Shown: piece after piece, positions 10,671 through 61,094 of the stretch
How the letters are laid out: the number at the start of each line of letters is the position of its first letter
Numbering within the stretch: the first letter of the stretch is position 1
DNA from: Ewingella americana ATCC 33852
GTDB taxonomy: Bacteria; Pseudomonadota; Gammaproteobacteria; Enterobacterales; Enterobacteriaceae
Assembly: GCF_000735345.1 (NCBI RefSeq)
Contig: NZ_JMPJ01000071.1
Span: 1 to 64,000 of the forward strand
Length of the DNA stretch: 64,000 nt
Reading direction: 5' to 3'
Made by a program: the position numbers and the translations under genes
The notes under the pieces: model-generated
What the model was told of the DNA's origin: nothing
Databases searched by the model: none
The model's input: only the letters and a program-made list of their open reading frames with translations

Positions 10671-11586
10671 TACTTGTCCTATCGTTACTGTAAACGCTCA
10701 GGCACGCGGTCGGATTATTTTTCTCATCGACCCGGCACTCTGCCATAAAGTCACGCGTTGAACCTGAGCTTATCAGCGAAACTAACGTCTCGCTTTGGAA
10801 GATAAAAATATTCCCCGGCTGGCAGACGATCTTCTTTTGCGCAATAAATTTCTCCGCTCGGTCAATAAAATCAGCGCGCTGGTTCGCAGGCAGTCGCGTG
10901 GTGGAATAAAGCGCGCACTGACCCAGGGTGGTGACCTCTAAATTCTCTTTCGGATCATAGATATGCTCATGGAGCAGCAACCCAAGAGCGAGCGCCAGAG
11001 TGAACAACGACGCGATAAAAATGGGTAGGGTAAAATCACGCGTGACCTTAGGCGTAACAAGGGCCGCTGGGGTGACCACGGCTGGCACTGCAAGGCTTTC
11101 ATCAGCCATTTCGTGAGTCATGTCGGGCATTAAAATGTTCTGTGGGCATTCCAGAGTCGGGGTTACTACTGGCTTCTGCTGGGCCTCCATTGCCGGTGTG
11201 GCAGTGACTTTATCACTATCCTCTTCGGGGCTGTTAATAGCTGCGGTAGCATCTATTGCAGAAATAGTTATTTCTTTTTTTAATAAAAATCCAACCTTAG
11301 GCACGGTGATTATCAAATCATCAGTATGGCCCAGTGTATTAATCACTTTGCGTAATTTGCTAATGCAGTGGTTAAGATTATTATTACTGGACACCAGCCC
11401 GTAATCATCCCAGACCTTTTTGAAAAGAATGTCACGTTGCACAACCGTGCCCTGCTGTTCGATAAGCAGTAATAAAACGCGGCGCGCGGGGTTCGAAATA
11501 CTCACTTGATTCTCTGGGTCGTTTGGCAAAGATAAAGTATTGTCTTCTGGGTTAAATAGTATTTGATTTTCAATTAGATAAATCAT
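10657..11586 (-). CDS. ToxR/CadC-like membrane-bound transcription regulator
   Basis: A single-pass membrane regulator of 309 residues. Residues about 5-105 form an OmpR/PhoB-type winged helix (ARRVLLLLIEQQGTVVQRD, then NLNHCISKLRKVIN and VPKVGFLL). A proline- and acid-rich linker follows, then one transmembrane helix (about 186-205). The periplasmic domain has four cysteines that could form redox- or ligand-sensitive disulfides. The ATG at 11586 is preferred over the one at 11592, because gaggg is six bases upstream of the former and abuts the latter. In E. coli the ToxR-like cadC also lies next to pheU, but this protein is not clearly CadC. Its targets, perhaps the fimbrial genes, are not known. 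Confidence 0.85.
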   Translation of the reverse strand: MIYLIENQILFNPEDNTLSLPNDPENQVSISNPARRVLLLLIEQQGTVVQRDILFKKVWDDYGLVSSNNNLNHCISKLRKVINTLGHTDDLIITVPKVGFLLKKEITISAIDATAAINSPEEDSDKVTATPAMEAQQKPVVTPTLECPQNILMPDMTHEMADESLAVPAVVTPAALVTPKVTRDFTLPIFIASLFTLALALGLLLHEHIYDPKENLEVTTLGQCALYSTTRLPANQRADFIDRAEKFIAQKKIVCQPGNIFIFQSETLVSLISSGSTRDFMAECRVDEKNNPTACLSVYSNDRTSNDKK

Positions 11587-11938
11587 GCCCATCCCTCTTT
11601 TATTCGCCCGTACGTCCTGGTGTTAGTTAAAGCTTGAGGGCGATATTTTTATTAAAATGCGACACAAAGTTTCCCAATCATATGAATAACCTATGTTGGA
11701 TTTTCTAGGTCAGTATAAACCTAGTATTTTGAAAAATAGAATCATATCCTTAAATAATATTGTTTTAAGGTGTAAGAATGCTCTGCTTTTTGAATATTTA
11801 TTACGTAATAACCTTGCGGATATTCACTTATAAATGAGTTAAGGAATTTTAGTAGAAGATGGGAAGTTTGGATGAGCAAAACAAGCCTCAATGCGCAACA
11901 AAGAGGCTTTCATTCTTAAATTACTCTCAGGCGGGGAT
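11587..11938. other. AT-rich spacer upstream of the ToxR-like regulator
   Basis: A 352-base stretch without a credible gene. Most of it (about 11640-11860) is strongly AT-rich and should hold the promoter of the ToxR-like gene, perhaps under H-NS silencing. No palindromic operator stood out. The right end holds the terminator of the mccF-like gene. Confidence 0.55.
11877..11912 (-). terminator. terminator of the mccF-like gene
   Basis: A 7-bp stem (aagcctc / gaggctt) encloses a 13-base loop. On the minus strand it is followed by gttttgc, 27 bases after the peptidase stop codon. The stem is good but the T-run is short. Confidence 0.6.
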
Positions 11939-12964
11939 TCAGGATAAATAACGACTAATGATAGAAACCAATGATTGGTCAAAATTGATGCACAGTGTCG
12001 CGCCGAGTGGCAGGGTAAGCATTGGGTGGGTGTGACAGCAGTCGAAGCCATCCACAATGGGCATAGGCTGCCCGGCCAGCACTTCGCGCAACACCTCATA
12101 AGGCTGACGGCCGCTGCCCGCGTTGTCGAACAGCTCGTGTTTGCCCAAGATGATGGCGCTCACCTTATCAAAGATGCCGTTAAGCTTGAGCATGGCGAAG
12201 GAGCGCTCGACGGTGGCGATATCTTTCAGGCTGTCTTCGATAAACAGAATGTCGCCGTCGCGGATCTCCGGCATCCAGTCACTGCCCCAAATACCCGACA
12301 GCGTATTCAGGTTGCCCCCTATCACCCGGCCCTCAATCTGCCCGGTACCTACGAAGCGGCATCGGTTCTCATACAAGGCTTTTGGCCGGACTGGCGTCAC
12401 GTCATCCCAATTCAGGCGTTCATCGCTCCAATGCGTCGGCAGTTGATAGCTGTAATGGCCGTGCTGAGGGCGAGTGAGAATATCGAGGAAGGAGTCATAG
12501 GTCGCATCGACCAGCGGCGGGAACTCGCCAAAGGACGCCACCAGAGCAGGCCCGTAGAAGGTAATGAGGCCGGTTTTGGCATAGATGCCCGCCAGCAGGG
12601 CGGTCGTGTCCGAGTAACCAATAATGATTTTCGGGTCGGCAATAATGGCGTCGTAATCCAGCCAAGGCAGCAATGCATTGCTGTTGTTGCCGCCAATGGT
12701 GGACATCACGCAGCGCACCTTGGGGTCACGGATCAGCGCGTTAAACTCCTCAGCACGCTCGGTAATAGAACCAGAACGGTAAAAGTCAGATTTCCCCGTC
12801 AGGCTGCCTGCTTGCAGCTTAAATCCTTTTTCCTCAAGGAAACGCTTGCCGCGATTGAAGCGATTCGGTGCCGTCGCGGTGGCAGGGGATGAAGCCGAGA
12901 AAAAGCCAATGGTGTCGCCAATCTGGAGAGGTTGAGCTAAAAGCTGGGGAGGGCGAATGGGCAT
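11939..12964 (-). CDS. MccF-like serine peptidase (S66, LD-carboxypeptidase family)
   Basis: A 341-residue cytoplasmic peptidase of the S66 family, which includes LdcA (murein tetrapeptide recycling) and MccF (microcin C7 self-immunity). The nucleophile elbow IIGYSDTT places serine at residue 118. A glutamate follows in FIEDS (243) and a histidine in CCHTHP (311), and these equal the Ser118-Glu243-His311 triad I recall for MccF. Trp186, described in MccF as a nucleobase contact, is also present. This points to MccF-type cleavage of aminoacyl-nucleotide antibiotics rather than murein recycling. No microcin biosynthesis gene lies nearby, so it may be a stand-alone resistance gene. Residue numbers for MccF are from memory. 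Confidence 0.85.
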   Translation of the reverse strand: MPIRPPQLLAQPLQIGDTIGFFSASSPATATAPNRFNRGKRFLEEKGFKLQAGSLTGKSDFYRSGSITERAEEFNALIRDPKVRCVMSTIGGNNSNALLPWLDYDAIIADPKIIIGYSDTTALLAGIYAKTGLITFYGPALVASFGEFPPLVDATYDSFLDILTRPQHGHYSYQLPTHWSDERLNWDDVTPVRPKALYENRCRFVGTGQIEGRVIGGNLNTLSGIWGSDWMPEIRDGDILFIEDSLKDIATVERSFAMLKLNGIFDKVSAIILGKHELFDNAGSGRQPYEVLREVLAGQPMPIVDGFDCCHTHPMLTLPLGATLCINFDQSLVSIISRYLS

Positions 12965-13059
12965 CTGAAGTCCTTATCAATCATGATTAATAAATGAATT
13001 CGAAGAGGACAATGTAGCAATATCGGGATTGGGAGAGTAGTTAGCGAAGGACAAATAGC

Positions 13060-13087
13060 AAAAAACCCGCCATAGGCGGGTTCTTCT
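13060..13087 (-). terminator. terminator after the truncated tRNA-Phe tail
   Basis: The stem aacccgcc/ggcgggtt is followed on the minus strand by six T residues. It closely resembles the terminator after the intact tRNA-Phe gene in both sequence and position relative to the tRNA tail, which suggests that tail and terminator were duplicated together. Confidence 0.8.
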
Positions 13088-13092
13088 AAATA

Positions 13093-13198
13093 TGGTGCCC
13101 GGACTCGGACCGCGGTGCGTCAGCACCGACGAACAGCGCTTGCGCTGGCCCCGAAGGGGTGAGTCTCAGGATGAGACGAATAATCGAACGAAGTTCGA
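13093..13198 (-). repeat. truncated tRNA-Phe 3' tail fused to a five-hairpin array
   Basis: Bases 13093-13109 repeat exactly the last 17 bases of the intact tRNA-Phe gene (same strand, CCA included). In place of the tRNA body there are five perfect hairpins in a row. They are 13114-13127 (ggtgc/gcacc), 13134-13147 (cagcgc/gcgctg), 13149-13159 (cccc/gggg), 13163-13177 (gtctca/tgagac) and 13184-13198 (tcgaac/gttcga). Loops are two to four bases. It would be transcribed after tRNA-Phe if its terminator is read through. The E. coli tyrT repeats, which carry 19 bases of tRNA-Tyr 3' end, are a precedent for tail duplication. An integration att remnant is the main alternative. Confidence 0.8.
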
Positions 13199-13222
13199 TG
13201 GAGAGTCCAGACGCCAGAAAGC

Positions 13223-13251
13223 AAAAAACCAGCCGTTAAGCTGGTTTCTTT
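13223..13251 (-). terminator. terminator of tRNA-Phe
   Basis: The stem aaaccagc/gctggttt with a short loop is followed by six T residues on the minus strand, just after the tRNA 3' end. Confidence 0.85.
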
Positions 13252-13256
13252 AAAGA

Positions 13257-13332
13257 TGGTGCCCGGACTCGGAATCGAACCAAGGACACGGGGATTTTCA
13301 ATCCCCTGCTCTACCGACTGAGCTATCCGGGC
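13257..13332 (-). tRNA. pheU: tRNA-Phe (GAA anticodon)
   Basis: A 76-base gene that matches E. coli tRNA-Phe throughout, with encoded CCA, acceptor stem GCCCGGA/TCCGGGC and anticodon loop TTGAAAA. It lies between the variable block and yjdC, the same place as pheU in E. coli. pheU is a known insertion point for genomic islands in E. coli. Confidence 0.98.
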
Positions 13333-13342
13333 AACGGGGCGC

Positions 13343-13371
13343 ATTAAACCGTATTGGCCGGTGGGCGTCAA
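13343..13371 (-). promoter_or_regulatory. sigma-70 promoter of tRNA-Phe
   Basis: On the minus strand, TTGACG (13366-13371) and TTTAAT (13343-13348) are separated by exactly 17 bases and followed by a GC-rich discriminator (gcgccccg). This is the usual form of a strong, stringently controlled stable-RNA promoter. Confidence 0.85.
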
Positions 13372-13459
13372 CGGCTTTATGCGAGAAACCTCATAAAAAC
13401 GGTTTGTTTGCTGCCTTTTCAGTCAAAAGAGAGAGCAGCAAGCCATTTTCAGCGGCTAT

Positions 13460-14035
13460 TTAGGCCAGAGCCCCATGTTCACGACAGCGCGCCACGTTGA
13501 GTACGTCTTCTGCCAACCGACGCGCCACGTCGACGTCGTGCAGCTGGCGTTTGACCAGCAGCTTGCTCAGGCAGCCTTCGAGAATCAGCTCCATCTGCTC
13601 GGCAACCATCTGCGCGTCGTCAGACCCCATCTCCTGCAATAGCTCGAAGGTGTAGTCATAAGAAGCCTGTTTCTGCTGCTCGGCCAACTGGTGGATAGGC
13701 GATTCGGTATCCGGATAGAAACTGCATGCGGCGATGAATAAGCAGCCCGGATAGCGATTTTGCCGAACCTGCTCGTCGAGCACTTTGTAGCGCGCCAGCA
13801 ATTTTTGCGGTGCGCTGAGGGTGTCATCCAGCAGCAGCTGGCGACGCCAGATATCAATCTGCTCGCCGTGGTGGCGCAGACTGTCGTACAGCAGCGCCTC
13901 GGCATCTGGCCAGAAACGGCGCAGATCGCTAAGTGGAATGCTGACCAATTCGGCAACGGATTCCAGTGACAGTGTGGCTAAACCGCGCTGTTCCAAAAGA
14001 TTAAGTGTTTGGTCAAGGACCTGTTCACGTAGCAC
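13460..14035 (-). CDS. yjdC: TetR-like regulator YjdC
   Basis: A 191-residue transcription regulator of the TetR/AcrR type, the same length as E. coli YjdC. The helix-turn-helix lies at about residues 8-45 ([20 protein letters not shown]). A C-terminal ligand domain carries the conserved [15 protein letters not shown] block. The start is GTG, chosen because gaggagg lies directly upstream. It follows dsbD by 43 bases on the same strand and is probably co-transcribed. The E. coli homologue has been linked to stress and copper-related regulation, but its ligand is not settled. Confidence 0.93.
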
Positions 14036-14078
14036 GTTTGCCTCCTCAAAATTCGCGTAATTCAGAACCTAGTGTCGT

Positions 14079-15815
14079 TTAAGGCTGCGTTTTCTGCAAA
14101 TGGCCGACGAACTGGGTTGCATTCATAAAGCCGGTAACCCGCGACTGCGGTAACTCTTTGCCATCAGCGCCAAAGAACAGAATGGTCGGCAGCCCCAGCA
14201 CCTGAAGGCGCTTTAGCAGCGCCACCTGCTGCGGGTTATTCTGCGTCACATCGGCTTGCAGTAACACCGTGTCTTTCAGCTCGTTTTGCACCTCTGGCGA
14301 GGTAAAGGTGTATTTCTCAAACTCTTTGCAAGCCACGCACCAGTCGGCGTACAAATCCAGCATCACTCTTTTGCCCTGCGCCTGCTGCAAGGCGGCATTC
14401 AGCTCTTCCACATTATTGATTTTGTGGAAGGCCAGCGCATGTTGCTGCACCGCGCTGCCCCCTTGTGGCGGGAACGCCCAGTCTTGCAGAGGTCGGCCCG
14501 CGACCAGCAGGGCAGCCAGCAGCAGCAACTGTAGGACGCGCACCAGCCCGCGCTGGCTCTTCAGGCTGATAATCAGCGCCCAGCCGAAGAAGGCAACTCC
14601 CAGCATACTCCACAATCTTAGTCCCCACACATCGCCGATGATTCGTTCTAGCAAGAACACCGGAAGCGCGAGGATCACAAAGCCAAAGCCTTCCTTAACA
14701 TACTGCATCCACGGGCCGCTGCGTGGCAGCAGGCGGTTGCCGAACAGCGTGACGATAATCAGCGGGATACCCATGCCCAAGGCGTAAAGGTAGAGGGTTC
14801 CCGCACCGGCCCACAGGTTTCCACTCTGGGCGATATACAGCAGTATGGCGCTCAGCGGCGCGGTGGTACAAGGCGAGCAGATAAGCCCGGCCAGCGCGCC
14901 CATAATAAAGACGCCCGCCAGCGAGCCGCCTTTTTGGTCATTGCTCCACAGGGTGAGGCGAGTCTGCACCGAGGAAGGCAATTGCAAGCTGAACAGGCCG
15001 AACATCGACAGGGCCAGCAGGATAAAGGCAGCAGAGAGCACAATCAGCACCCAAGGACTTTGTAGCGCGGCCTGGAACTGAAGCCCGGCGGCGGCAACCA
15101 CCATGCCCAGCAAGGTATAGGTCAGCGCCATGCCCTGAACATAAACCAGCGCCAGCAGGAAGATGCGTTTCATGCTTTGCGGGCGCTGGCGGCCAAGAAT
15201 AATGCCGGAAATCAGCGGATACATCGGCAGTACGCACGGGGTGAAGGCGATACCAATGCCAATCAGCAAAGCCCAAAGCGGCGAGAAGGGCAGCGGCGTG
15301 GCCTGCGGCGTCGGCGCGGCTTCAATCGGCTTCTCTGCTGTTGAAGGTGGTGTCGCGGCGTCAGCAGCCTGCCCGCTGACTTCGCTCAGCGGAATAATGC
15401 GAGTTTCCGGCGGGTAGCAGAAGCCCGCCACCGCGCAGCCCTGATAGCTGACTTTCAGCGATGCCTGAGCACTCGCCTGACGCAGCGGTACGCTAAGATT
15501 CAGCTGCTTTTCATAGACTTGGGTATCGCCAAAGAACTCATCGTGATGCTCCAGACCCTTCGGCAAGATAAATGCCGCCAGCTGGGCTTGGTCGCCGACT
15601 AACTCGATTTTGTCGCGATAGAGATAGTAGCCATCGCGGATCTTCCAGTTGAGTTTGAGGTTGGGACCTTGTTGCTGAAAATCGAAGTCGAATGCCTGAT
15701 CAACCGGCACGAACTGCGGGTTCGCAGGCTGGCTGAACAGGGAAGCCTGAGCGTGCAGCGGCAGTAAGAACAGGCTACAAATCAGGAGGAAAAGGCGAAA
15801 AATGCGGTGATCCAT
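14079..15815 (-). CDS. dsbD: thiol:disulfide interchange protein DsbD
   Basis: Carries reducing power from cytoplasmic thioredoxin across the inner membrane to periplasmic DsbC, DsbG and CcmG. The start at 15815 gives 578 residues (E. coli 565) and a clean signal peptide ([10 protein letters not shown]... ending QASLF). A frame open to 15869 would add an unlikely 18 residues. Order of domains: periplasmic alpha domain with [12 protein letters not shown] cysteines, eight membrane segments with the TPCVLPMYP cysteine and a second in CSPCTTAP, and a C-terminal thioredoxin domain with DWCVACK. In E. coli, cutA sits between dcuA and dsbD, and here it is absent. Confidence 0.96.
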
Positions 15816-15988
15816 GCGGATTATCTTTCTCTTAGTCACGGTCAGCAGCAACCGCTGGTTAAATCGCAAGAGGGCGCGCGTCGCTTCATGCCACGGCGCG
15901 TTAATAGAAGCTGATTATAGCCCGCGCAAAGGGTGAGCAGAAAGCGTTGGAATGTCAGGGTTTGTCAGAGTGGCGCGAGGAGGGCGAG

Positions 15989-16014
15989 AACAGGGGCCGA
16001 AGCCCCTGTGAAAA
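15989..16014 (-). terminator. possible terminator downstream of dcuA
   Basis: An 8-bp perfect stem (acaggggc / gcccctgt) with a four-base loop lies just after the dcuA stop. No T-run follows on either strand, so it may stabilise the 3' end or be a weak terminator rather than a full one. Confidence 0.45.
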
Positions 16015-16018
16015 ACTG

Positions 16019-17320
16019 TTAGAGAATGATGCTGCCGAGGCCAAACCCGAACAGCACCGACAGGAATACGCCGATGGTGCCGGGGATGAAGAACGGGTGG
16101 TTGAAGACGAAACGGCCGATGCGCGTGGTGCCGGTGTCATCCATTTGTACTGCCGCAACCAGCGTCGGGTAGGTCGGCAGAATGAACAAGCCGGAGACGG
16201 CGGCAAAAGAGGCCACGGCGGTCAGCGGGGTGACGTTTAACGCCAGCGCCAGCGGCATCAAAGCTTTGGCGGTGGCCGCCTGTGAGTAGAGCAGCGCCGA
16301 GCAGAAGAAGAAAATCACCGCCAGCAGCCACGGGTGAGACTGAATCAGTTCACCGGCAGTGTCTTTAATCCAACCCAGATTGGCCTGCACGAAGGTATCG
16401 CCCAGCCACGCTACGCCGAGAATACAGATACAGGCACTCATGCCCGCCTTGAAAGTGCCGGAGGTGAGGATGGAGTCGGTGTTAATCCGGCAAATCAGCG
16501 TGGTCAGGGTCGCCACGCTCAACATGATGATCAGAATTGCGCTGGTGGTATTCATCAGCGGTTTCTCCACCCAGCCGAGGCTCGGGCTGTTGACCACCGC
16601 GTAGCCCACCACGCTGAAAACGCCGAGCAGGAACAGCAACACGGAGAGTTTAGCGCGCGGTTTGATGGCTTTGCGGTTGTTGCCGCGCAGTTCCACCAGA
16701 CCTTCTTCATAGCGCTTGAGGTAAACCGGGTCGTCAGACAGCTTCGAGTTGAATAACCAGCCAATCAGCAGCGACATCACGATAACCGCCGCGAAGGTGG
16801 AGGGGATCATCACCATCAATAGGTGCAGATAGCTGACCCCGTGACCTTCCATCACCGACGACATATAGACCACCGCCGCCGAAATCGGCGAGGCCGTGAT
16901 ACCAATTTGCGCAGCAACCACTGCCGTGGAAAGTGGGCGGCAAGGCTTAATTCCCTGCTCTTTTGCCACTTCGGCAATCACCGGCAGCGCGGAGAGCGAG
17001 ATGTTGCCAGTACCGGCCAACAGGGTGAGGAAATAGGTAACGATAGGAGCCAGCAGGGTGATGTGCTTAGGGTTACGACGCAGCAGCTTTTCGGTTTGCT
17101 GCACCAGATAGTCCATGCCGCCTGCCACCTGCATGGTGGAGATCGCGGCGATCACCGCCATGATGATGGAGATGACGTCAAAAGGGATGCTGCCGGGTTT
17201 AACGCCGCAGAGGGCCAGCGCCAGAACGCCAATTCCTCCTGCAAACCCAATGCCTATCCCGCCCAGCCGCGCGCCCAAAAAAATCGCCGCCAGTACAATG
17301 ATGAGTTCGATGATTAACAT
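16019..17320 (-). CDS. dcuA: anaerobic C4-dicarboxylate transporter DcuA
   Basis: A 433-residue inner-membrane antiporter (E. coli DcuA has 433) for aspartate, fumarate, malate and succinate. It supplies aspartate to AspA and exports succinate during fumarate respiration. It has about ten hydrophobic segments, and the opening MLIIELIIVLAAIFLGARLG is characteristic of Dcu proteins. It lies 133 bases downstream of aspA on the same strand, the conserved aspA-dcuA order, with a terminator between the two that suggests some independent expression. Confidence 0.97.
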   Translation of the reverse strand: MLIIELIIVLAAIFLGARLGGIGIGFAGGIGVLALALCGVKPGSIPFDVISIIMAVIAAISTMQVAGGMDYLVQQTEKLLRRNPKHITLLAPIVTYFLTLLAGTGNISLSALPVIAEVAKEQGIKPCRPLSTAVVAAQIGITASPISAAVVYMSSVMEGHGVSYLHLLMVMIPSTFAAVIVMSLLIGWLFNSKLSDDPVYLKRYEEGLVELRGNNRKAIKPRAKLSVLLFLLGVFSVVGYAVVNSPSLGWVEKPLMNTTSAILIIMLSVATLTTLICRINTDSILTSGTFKAGMSACICILGVAWLGDTFVQANLGWIKDTAGELIQSHPWLLAVIFFFCSALLYSQAATAKALMPLALALNVTPLTAVASFAAVSGLFILPTYPTLVAAVQMDDTGTTRIGRFVFNHPFFIPGTIGVFLSVLFGFGLGSIIL

Positions 17321-24394: not shown

Positions 24395-24430
24395 TTTGCA
24401 TCATTTGCATCATTTGCATCATTTGCATCA
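24395..24430 (+). repeat. four perfect 9-bp tandem repeats upstream of ecnA
   Basis: The unit tttgcatca occurs four times without mismatch at 24395, 24404, 24413 and 24422, ending 16 bases before the ecnA start codon. The array is in non-coding DNA between efp and ecnA. It falls where the ecnA promoter or leader should be. Confidence 0.95.
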
Positions 24431-36934: not shown

Positions 36935-37010
<76 letters not shown>

Positions 37011-37055
37011 AATTTTAAGTTTCAGATTTATCGAGTAAAAGCACCACCATGCGAC

Positions 37056-37131
<76 letters not shown>

Positions 37132-37209
37132 AAAAGTTTCATCTCTCAGAAGTAACGCTGTGGTTTTCCAACAAACCAGTTAACAGCGCGATACGCCAAG
37201 TATCTCAAT

Positions 37210-37285
<76 letters not shown>

Positions 37286-60530: not shown

Positions 60531-60639
60531 CACGAGTATTATCAAAGGCTGAGAATTAATCAGCCTTATTCCTTGAGTTTCCCGCTGGCTATACATATAA
60601 TTGCGCGTCATTTTTTCGACCGCACAACAAACACGTTCC

Positions 60640-61094
<455 letters not shown>

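Follow-up and report, generated by a model that had tools for sequence, protein, structure and literature searches.

Why should the end of a tRNA gene be repeated a short distance behind the gene, with a row of hairpins between the two copies? This is the question raised by tRNA-Phe on the minus strand of a 64,000-nucleotide stretch of Ewingella americana ATCC 33852 DNA (contig NZ_JMPJ01000071.1, positions 1 to 64,000; hereafter the window), where the last 17 bases of the gene recur 164 bp downstream of its end as TCCGAGTCCGGGCACCA, with 17 of 17 bases exact. A sequence-only reading of the region had described the repeated tail, a second terminator and five intervening hairpins, all confirmed here by position and fold (Table 1). 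It had also compared the design with the tyrT (rtT) repeats of Escherichia coli and suggested either a stable sponge or decoy RNA or a scar of integration. The rtT-like design, the neighbours at other tRNAs and the compensatory change in the stems stood up to analysis; the sponge or decoy RNA and the plain att scar are the less probable readings.

Table 1. Features of the tRNA-Phe array, in window positions
Feature	Position	Strand	Basis
tRNA-Phe (GAA) gene, with 13257-13273 as its final 17 bases	13257-13332	-	ARAGORN and Rfam RF00005
First terminator-like hairpin, T6, between tRNA-Phe and array	13221-13247	-	Direct reading of the sequence; present in fold
Outer stem 5' arm GUCUGGACUC, complementary to tail copy	13203-13212	-	Fold and tail-pairing test
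Hairpin 1 (hp1), ATCGAAC/GTTCGAT, near-invariant, seen in tRNA-Phe units	13183-13199	-	Conservation
Four-hairpin module	13108-13181	-	R1 match (E 1.5e-17; Phe cores are part of R1), covariation, antisense R1 matches to RtT units
hpA stem	13163-13177	-	
hpB stem	13149-13159	-	
hpC stem	13134-13147	-	
hpD stem	13113-13128	-	
Module linkers in the window array: ATTCG, CTCA, TTC, GTC			
Tail copy TCCGAGTCCGGGCACCA, exact repeat of the 17-base end of tRNA-Phe, closing with CCA	13093-13109	-	
Second, diverged terminator, after tail copy	13058-13082	-	Terminator scan

The unit thus consists, in order, of the tRNA-Phe 3' tail with its terminator, a complementary arm, hairpin 1, a module of four hairpins with their linkers, and the next tail. 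The array folds at -93.4 kcal/mol, compared with -58.0 (sd 4.4) for shuffled sequences (z -8; reached by 0 of 200 shuffles). In this fold a 10-bp outer stem joins GUCUGGACUC (13212-13203) to GAGUCCGGGC of the tail copy, so that all five hairpins are enclosed in one multibranch loop. The terminator scan of the region returned the second terminator only, and the first terminator-like hairpin was taken from the sequence itself. At the Rfam gathering level, and with matches listed at E up to 10, no family except tRNA reached its cut-off on the array. Over 1.7 kb the locus shares 94% identity with that of another genome of the same genus (L014), and over 4.2 kb it shares 77% with one of Rahnella rivi (L153). 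Exact 17-mers repeated within 250 bp are rare in the window, which holds 73 of them, and the 60 that were listed lie at the array, at about 24.4 kb and in a tRNA-Gly cluster. The second of these places has a 25-base exact repeat (24395-24419) with copies no more than 250 bp apart, and the third has three tRNA-Gly(GCC) genes in tandem (36935-37285). The window also carries an RpsF leader (RF02893) at 60619-60704.

The other tRNA-Phe of the Ewingella genome is followed by two tandem units that are 92-95% identical to that of the window. A search with the unit in 99 genomes, its own included, was positive for 39, in many cases through the terminator part alone. The exact pattern of hairpin 1 was found in 62 stretches from named genomes under 15 enterobacterial genus names: Citrobacter, Klebsiella, Enterobacter, Kosakonia, Lonsdalea, Phytobacter, Mangrovibacter, Raoultella, Rahnella, Serratia, Leclercia, Entomohabitans, Kluyvera, Pluralibacter and Escherichia. 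Complete units stand behind tRNA-Phe in 36 of these 62 stretches and under 12 of the 15 names; the copies in Citrobacter, Entomohabitans and Kluyvera are partial or without a tRNA in the available stretch. Also among the 62, unexpectedly, two contigs labelled Chryseobacterium sp. 18061 (L139, L144) carry units of enterobacterial type, perhaps through mislabelling or a mixed assembly.

The arrays hold from zero to three units, and at several tRNA-Phe loci the tail and terminator stand without a complete unit. We parsed 85 units from overlapping loci, of which 68 were distinct, with a length of 160-166 bp (one spurious unit measured 216); some units end early, at varied points. These loci contain 128 copies of the module, and 99 have a tRNA-Phe within 1300 bp. 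All 99 are downstream of the tRNA and on its strand by their match to R1, a model that we built from Phe-type and dispersed copies and that includes the window copy in its training set; the other 29 could not be judged in this way. In none of 5426 E. coli genomes did a match cover 80% of the Phe-unit query, and E. coli K-12 has no unit at a distance of up to 3 kb from pheU or pheV. The hairpin-1 pattern scan of viral contigs gave 0 matches, and dsbD-type genes were among the matches listed in a search of a plasmid collection with the array flanks.

The stems were compared in a set of 64 units (the 68 distinct ones minus two without the string ATCG, duplicate bodies and the one spurious unit) and in 33 cores, 17 of Phe type and 16 from other places. 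The 64 units have 94.2% of pair cells paired, with changes on both sides in 11 of 32 pairs, and a covariation score of 0.147, which compares with 0.059 for shuffles and no more than 0.047 when the pairing was slid. For the 33 cores the corresponding values are 90.5%, 15 of 19 pairs, 0.479, 0.142 and at most 0.108. The number of double-change pairs in the 64 units was reached by 12 of 500 shuffles; the further pair types were not above shuffles, being reached by 390 of 500 for the units and 100 of 500 for the cores. RNAalifold across units gave a covariation term of -1.6 only, with the hpD stem absent, and hpD was badly aligned in the 64-unit alignment, where 75.8% of its cells are paired. Compensatory change, which the sequence-only reading had proposed to look for, is present: hpA, hpC and hpD change on both sides and keep their pairing, while the linkers and hairpin 1 are near-constant.

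Since a search by the hairpin-1 pattern forces hairpin 1 to appear conserved, conservation was determined again on 22 units found otherwise. Their mean column identity is 0.99-1.00 in the hairpin 1 stems and 1.00 in the linkers TATTCG, TTC and GTCC, followed by 0.98 in the CTCA linker and the arm and 0.97 in the tail, and it is 0.57 in hpA, 0.66 in hpD and 0.64 in the spacer. Of 47 terminal tails 40 retain the CCA end, as do 23 of 24 internal ones, counts obtained with a tail pattern that favours kept tails. The constancy of the linkers and hairpin 1, beside stems that vary and yet stay paired, suggests that the former are recognised by something and that the other stems need only be palindromic. 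The strong constraint on hairpin 1, the linkers and the tail moreover suggests a present function, beyond what passive upkeep would give by itself.

Pairing may be kept at the level of RNA or of DNA, and the wobble pairs bear on this choice, although the figures are counts over related sequences that ignore kinship and do not amount to a test. Among the stem cells of 78 Phe modules 1432 are Watson-Crick, 5 G-U, 21 A-C and 32 other, in the orientation of the tRNA strand. In hpA and hpC of the 64 units there are 73 double-changed cells, one of which is the sole G-U cell there. At tRNA-Phe the counts are thus not in favour of a folded RNA from the tRNA strand. For 41 other modules (779 Watson-Crick, 24 G-U, 15 A-C and 6 other) they lean mildly the opposite way. 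The model alignments gave 3 G-U and 14 A-C cells in hpA to hpC of Phe loci against 4 G-U and 1 A-C in RtT loci, and 47 G-U and 6 A-C in the badly aligned hpD columns of Phe loci. Scarce wobble together with many double changes would fit the correction of a palindrome at the DNA level. Compensatory base changes in repeats of this kind need not imply a functional RNA.

Related units occur beside other tRNA genes of enterobacteria, where the sequence-only reading had proposed to search. The RtT family (RF00391) has matches downstream of tRNA-Tyr, tRNA-Pro and tRNA-Lys in the genome of the window, and of the Tyr, Lys, Pro and Ser tRNAs in relatives; no such match was obtained at 12950-13450 of the window at E up to 10, nor on L008, L014 and L017 at E up to 0.01. 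Model R1, whose training set includes three Lys-array modules (one from L031, two from L032), matches RtT loci with E values of 1e-3 to 1e-10. In a strand table of 23 RtT units from selected loci it overlaps 14 and leaves 9 unmatched, and all 15 overlaps are antisense, one of the 15 being a training sequence (a mixed Lys unit, L031). One RtT unit behind tRNA-Lys in L031 overlaps two successive R1 matches, which indicates that modules can be joined in series. As R1 lies on the tRNA strand at tRNA-Phe and antisense at RtT units, the module appears to be flipped relative to the tyrT rtT repeats: the orientation with respect to the tRNA differs between the 99 Phe copies and the 14 matched RtT units. 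These model matches support homology of the Phe module with the RtT (tyrT) core, on the opposite strand.

The outer stem was compared as well. The Phe arm pairs over 10 bp with its own tail and over no more than 6 with seven other tails, as would be expected of an RtT-like outer stem. Among eight units the arm pairs longest with a tail of its own kind in five (Phe, two Tyr, Lys of L059, Pro of L057) and does not in three (Pro of L177, Ser, Lys of L179). The Phe outer stem is secure across the 64 units over about 7 bp only, with the CCA excluded, and is thus not a full acceptor stem.

The module is also found away from tRNA genes, although all three R1 copies in the genome of the window are at tRNA-Phe. 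At E up to 0.001 there are at least 149 R1 copies in one genome (G046), at least 141 in a second (G027), at least 49 in a third (G008) and at least 6 to 17 in six others, and at least 103 of 246 genomes of the family have one copy or more at E 1e-8. BLAST with the Phe unit matched dispersed copies independently of R1. When 20 copies were sampled from each of the two richest genomes, 17 of 17 parsed copies in G046 and 16 of 19 in G027 were inside ERIC-like sequence, compared with 8 of 605 control windows from other genomes and, in own-genome windows away from the locus centre, 8 of 59 (G046) and 1 of 49 (G027). ERIC copies without the module, some of them in the same genome, are 68 bp shorter at that point. 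The model matches thus support the presence of the same module inside ERIC as an insert of about 70 bp.

Stable RNA genes other than tRNA are likewise neighbours of the module. In G021 it is present in six of the seven matching spacers between 23S and 5S (L221-L226, L228), with 5S and 23S placed on either side by Rfam. The seventh spacer was considered as an empty site and rejected, its 7 bp matching one hpD arm and being a probable remnant. A further copy (L186, 1049-1124) precedes the RNase P RNA gene (rnpB) by about 46 bp, and another (L184, 1138-1215) interrupts an rhs-like ORF. Neither a transposase nor a target duplication was identified for the module.

It is well supported that Phe arrays, RtT repeats and ERIC share one module, and repeats that were described separately therefore look like one family. 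The explanation that we consider best, and probable by a modest measure, is that the array represents a single unit in a tRNA tail repeat of the rtT type, in which a mobile hairpin module, palindromic at the DNA level, has been captured and tandemly amplified. What can be said of how the module moves, and of the present-day role of the Phe array, is what we infer from these comparisons. A mobile, non-coding palindromic element may have been caught behind tRNA-Phe in an ancestor of these enterobacteria, and recombination between the direct repeats of tail and terminator, as well as between the two tRNA-Phe loci, would then have increased its number and made the copies alike. The near-perfect stems would come mainly from upkeep of the palindrome in DNA, for example by template switching, and the fixed linkers could be recognition sequences of whatever moves or reads the module. 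The array would be transcribed only where the polymerase reads through the terminator, in which case a CCA-ended fragment could be freed by tRNA 3' processing as a by-product. What such a passive reading chiefly leaves open is why the linkers and hairpin 1 are so strongly constrained.

More tentatively, and with somewhat less than even confidence, we suggest that rtT repeats, ERIC inserts, Phe arrays and 23S-5S inserts are all copies of one mobile module of DNA. It would settle within ERIC and beside stable RNA genes, on either strand, with hairpins kept perfect at the DNA level, and rtT RNA would be a by-product or a domesticated form of it that depends on the orientation.

A functional rtT-like small RNA would explain part of the same evidence. 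Here read-through transcripts would be cut by the tRNA-processing enzymes to a structured, CCA-ended RNA of 110-160 nt, which would act as a decoy for these enzymes or, as reported for rtT, as a modulator of the stringent response. The conserved structure with its compensatory changes, the near-invariant linkers and hairpin 1 and the retention of CCA all agree with this, and Northern signals are reported for RtT-family RNAs of Actinobacillus pleuropneumoniae (PMC4986893). Nevertheless a terminator-like hairpin precedes the module, and a scan of 12900-13500 found no promoter-like site (it also missed the promoter of tRNA-Phe itself). Moreover the module is antisense to that of rtT, the excess of A-C over G-U cells is not in favour of an RNA of the tRNA strand, and the secure part of the outer stem stops short of the CCA that such an RNA would be expected to carry. 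The stable sponge or decoy of the sequence-only reading is accordingly not borne out, and we regard a functional small RNA as rather unlikely.

The tail copies might instead be att sites that remain from integrative elements targeting the 3' end of tRNA-Phe. A direct repeat of a tRNA 3' end is what such elements would leave, some units are truncated, not always at the same point, and at about 1430-1700 of L029 (G002) ORFs that by eye resemble parA and dnaB, as in an island, adjoin a broken unit, a terminator and a fragment of the tRNA-Phe 3' end. Against a scar stand the tandem units of 160-166 bp with a conserved, structured interior, found complete in many genera, and the lack of matches to the hairpin-1 pattern in viral contigs; nor was an integrase recognised by eye among ORFs of at least 110 aa at 11500-16500. 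The plain att scar is thus unsupported, and we consider it improbable. A device of transcription, in which the array would insulate behind a highly active tRNA gene, for instance by blocking read-through into the next gene, could draw on the position of the array between tRNA-Phe and the following ORF on the same strand (11939-12964) and on the terminator-like hairpin that comes after each tail. Yet several tRNA-Phe loci do with the tail and terminator, E. coli K-12 has no unit near pheU or pheV (3 kb), and the module stands also at unrelated places such as ERIC, all of which makes insulation very improbable as an explanation.

REP sequences resemble the module in being short palindromes of supposed mobile origin, and differ in that they are palindromes of 20-40 bp, the GTAG type being tied to RAYT transposases (PMC3733652). 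AaHKsRNA22 (RF02902, Aggregatibacter sRNA 22) matches the strand opposite R1 in two dispersed copies above its cut-off of 39.8 bits (L184, 1118-1222, 44.2 bits; L186, 1042-1138, 41.9 bits) and falls just below it in a third (L034, 39.0 bits), whereas at E up to 10 it is absent from the matches listed for the array of the window. As it matches the reverse strand of the module, this family may overlap the same repeat; in the literature only a mention of a sister family was found. In E. coli the 3' end of another stable RNA gene, rnpB, is also repeated together with terminators.

With ERIC the likeness is in the module itself, the inserts having the same four hairpins and the linkers A(T/C)TCG, CTC(A/G)CC, TTC and GTC in 68 bp. 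The difference is in the surroundings, for the window array lies between tRNA tails without the ends or core of ERIC, and neither the ends nor the central primer sites were found on either strand at 12900-13450. Insertions within ERIC elements were reportedly described by Sharp in 1997 (a title in a reference list) and are said to be about 70 bp long; the module found in ERIC here is presumably that insert. A limited literature search, covering few subscription papers, found no published link between rtT and ERIC inserts.

The closest likeness is to the RtT/tyrT repeats, and the comparison made in the sequence-only reading holds in this respect. The E. coli tyrT repeat (rttR, RF00391) is 178 bp long. 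Phe units, as in E. coli tyrT, are bounded by copies of the tail of the upstream tRNA and occur in tandem; in both the unit starts and ends with this 3' tail, which pairs with a complementary arm around a row of hairpins, and the core is detected by R1. Unlike them, the Phe module has the reverse orientation with respect to the tRNA, the unit has the additional hairpin 1, and the array is not matched by RF00391. A terminator-like hairpin was present in each Phe unit that was read and none that is strong follows tRNA-Tyr, while such hairpins occur after Pro, Ser and one Lys tRNA. A rule by which antisense units would have a terminator and sense units none was dropped, the Pro, Ser and one Lys loci combining a terminator with a sense module. 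While rtT RNA has been filed under tRNA operons and the ERIC insert as an oddity of a repeat, they appear to share a module that stands in opposite orientations at different tRNAs, and this sharing makes it testable whether the structure is selected as an RNA or belongs to a mobile palindrome.
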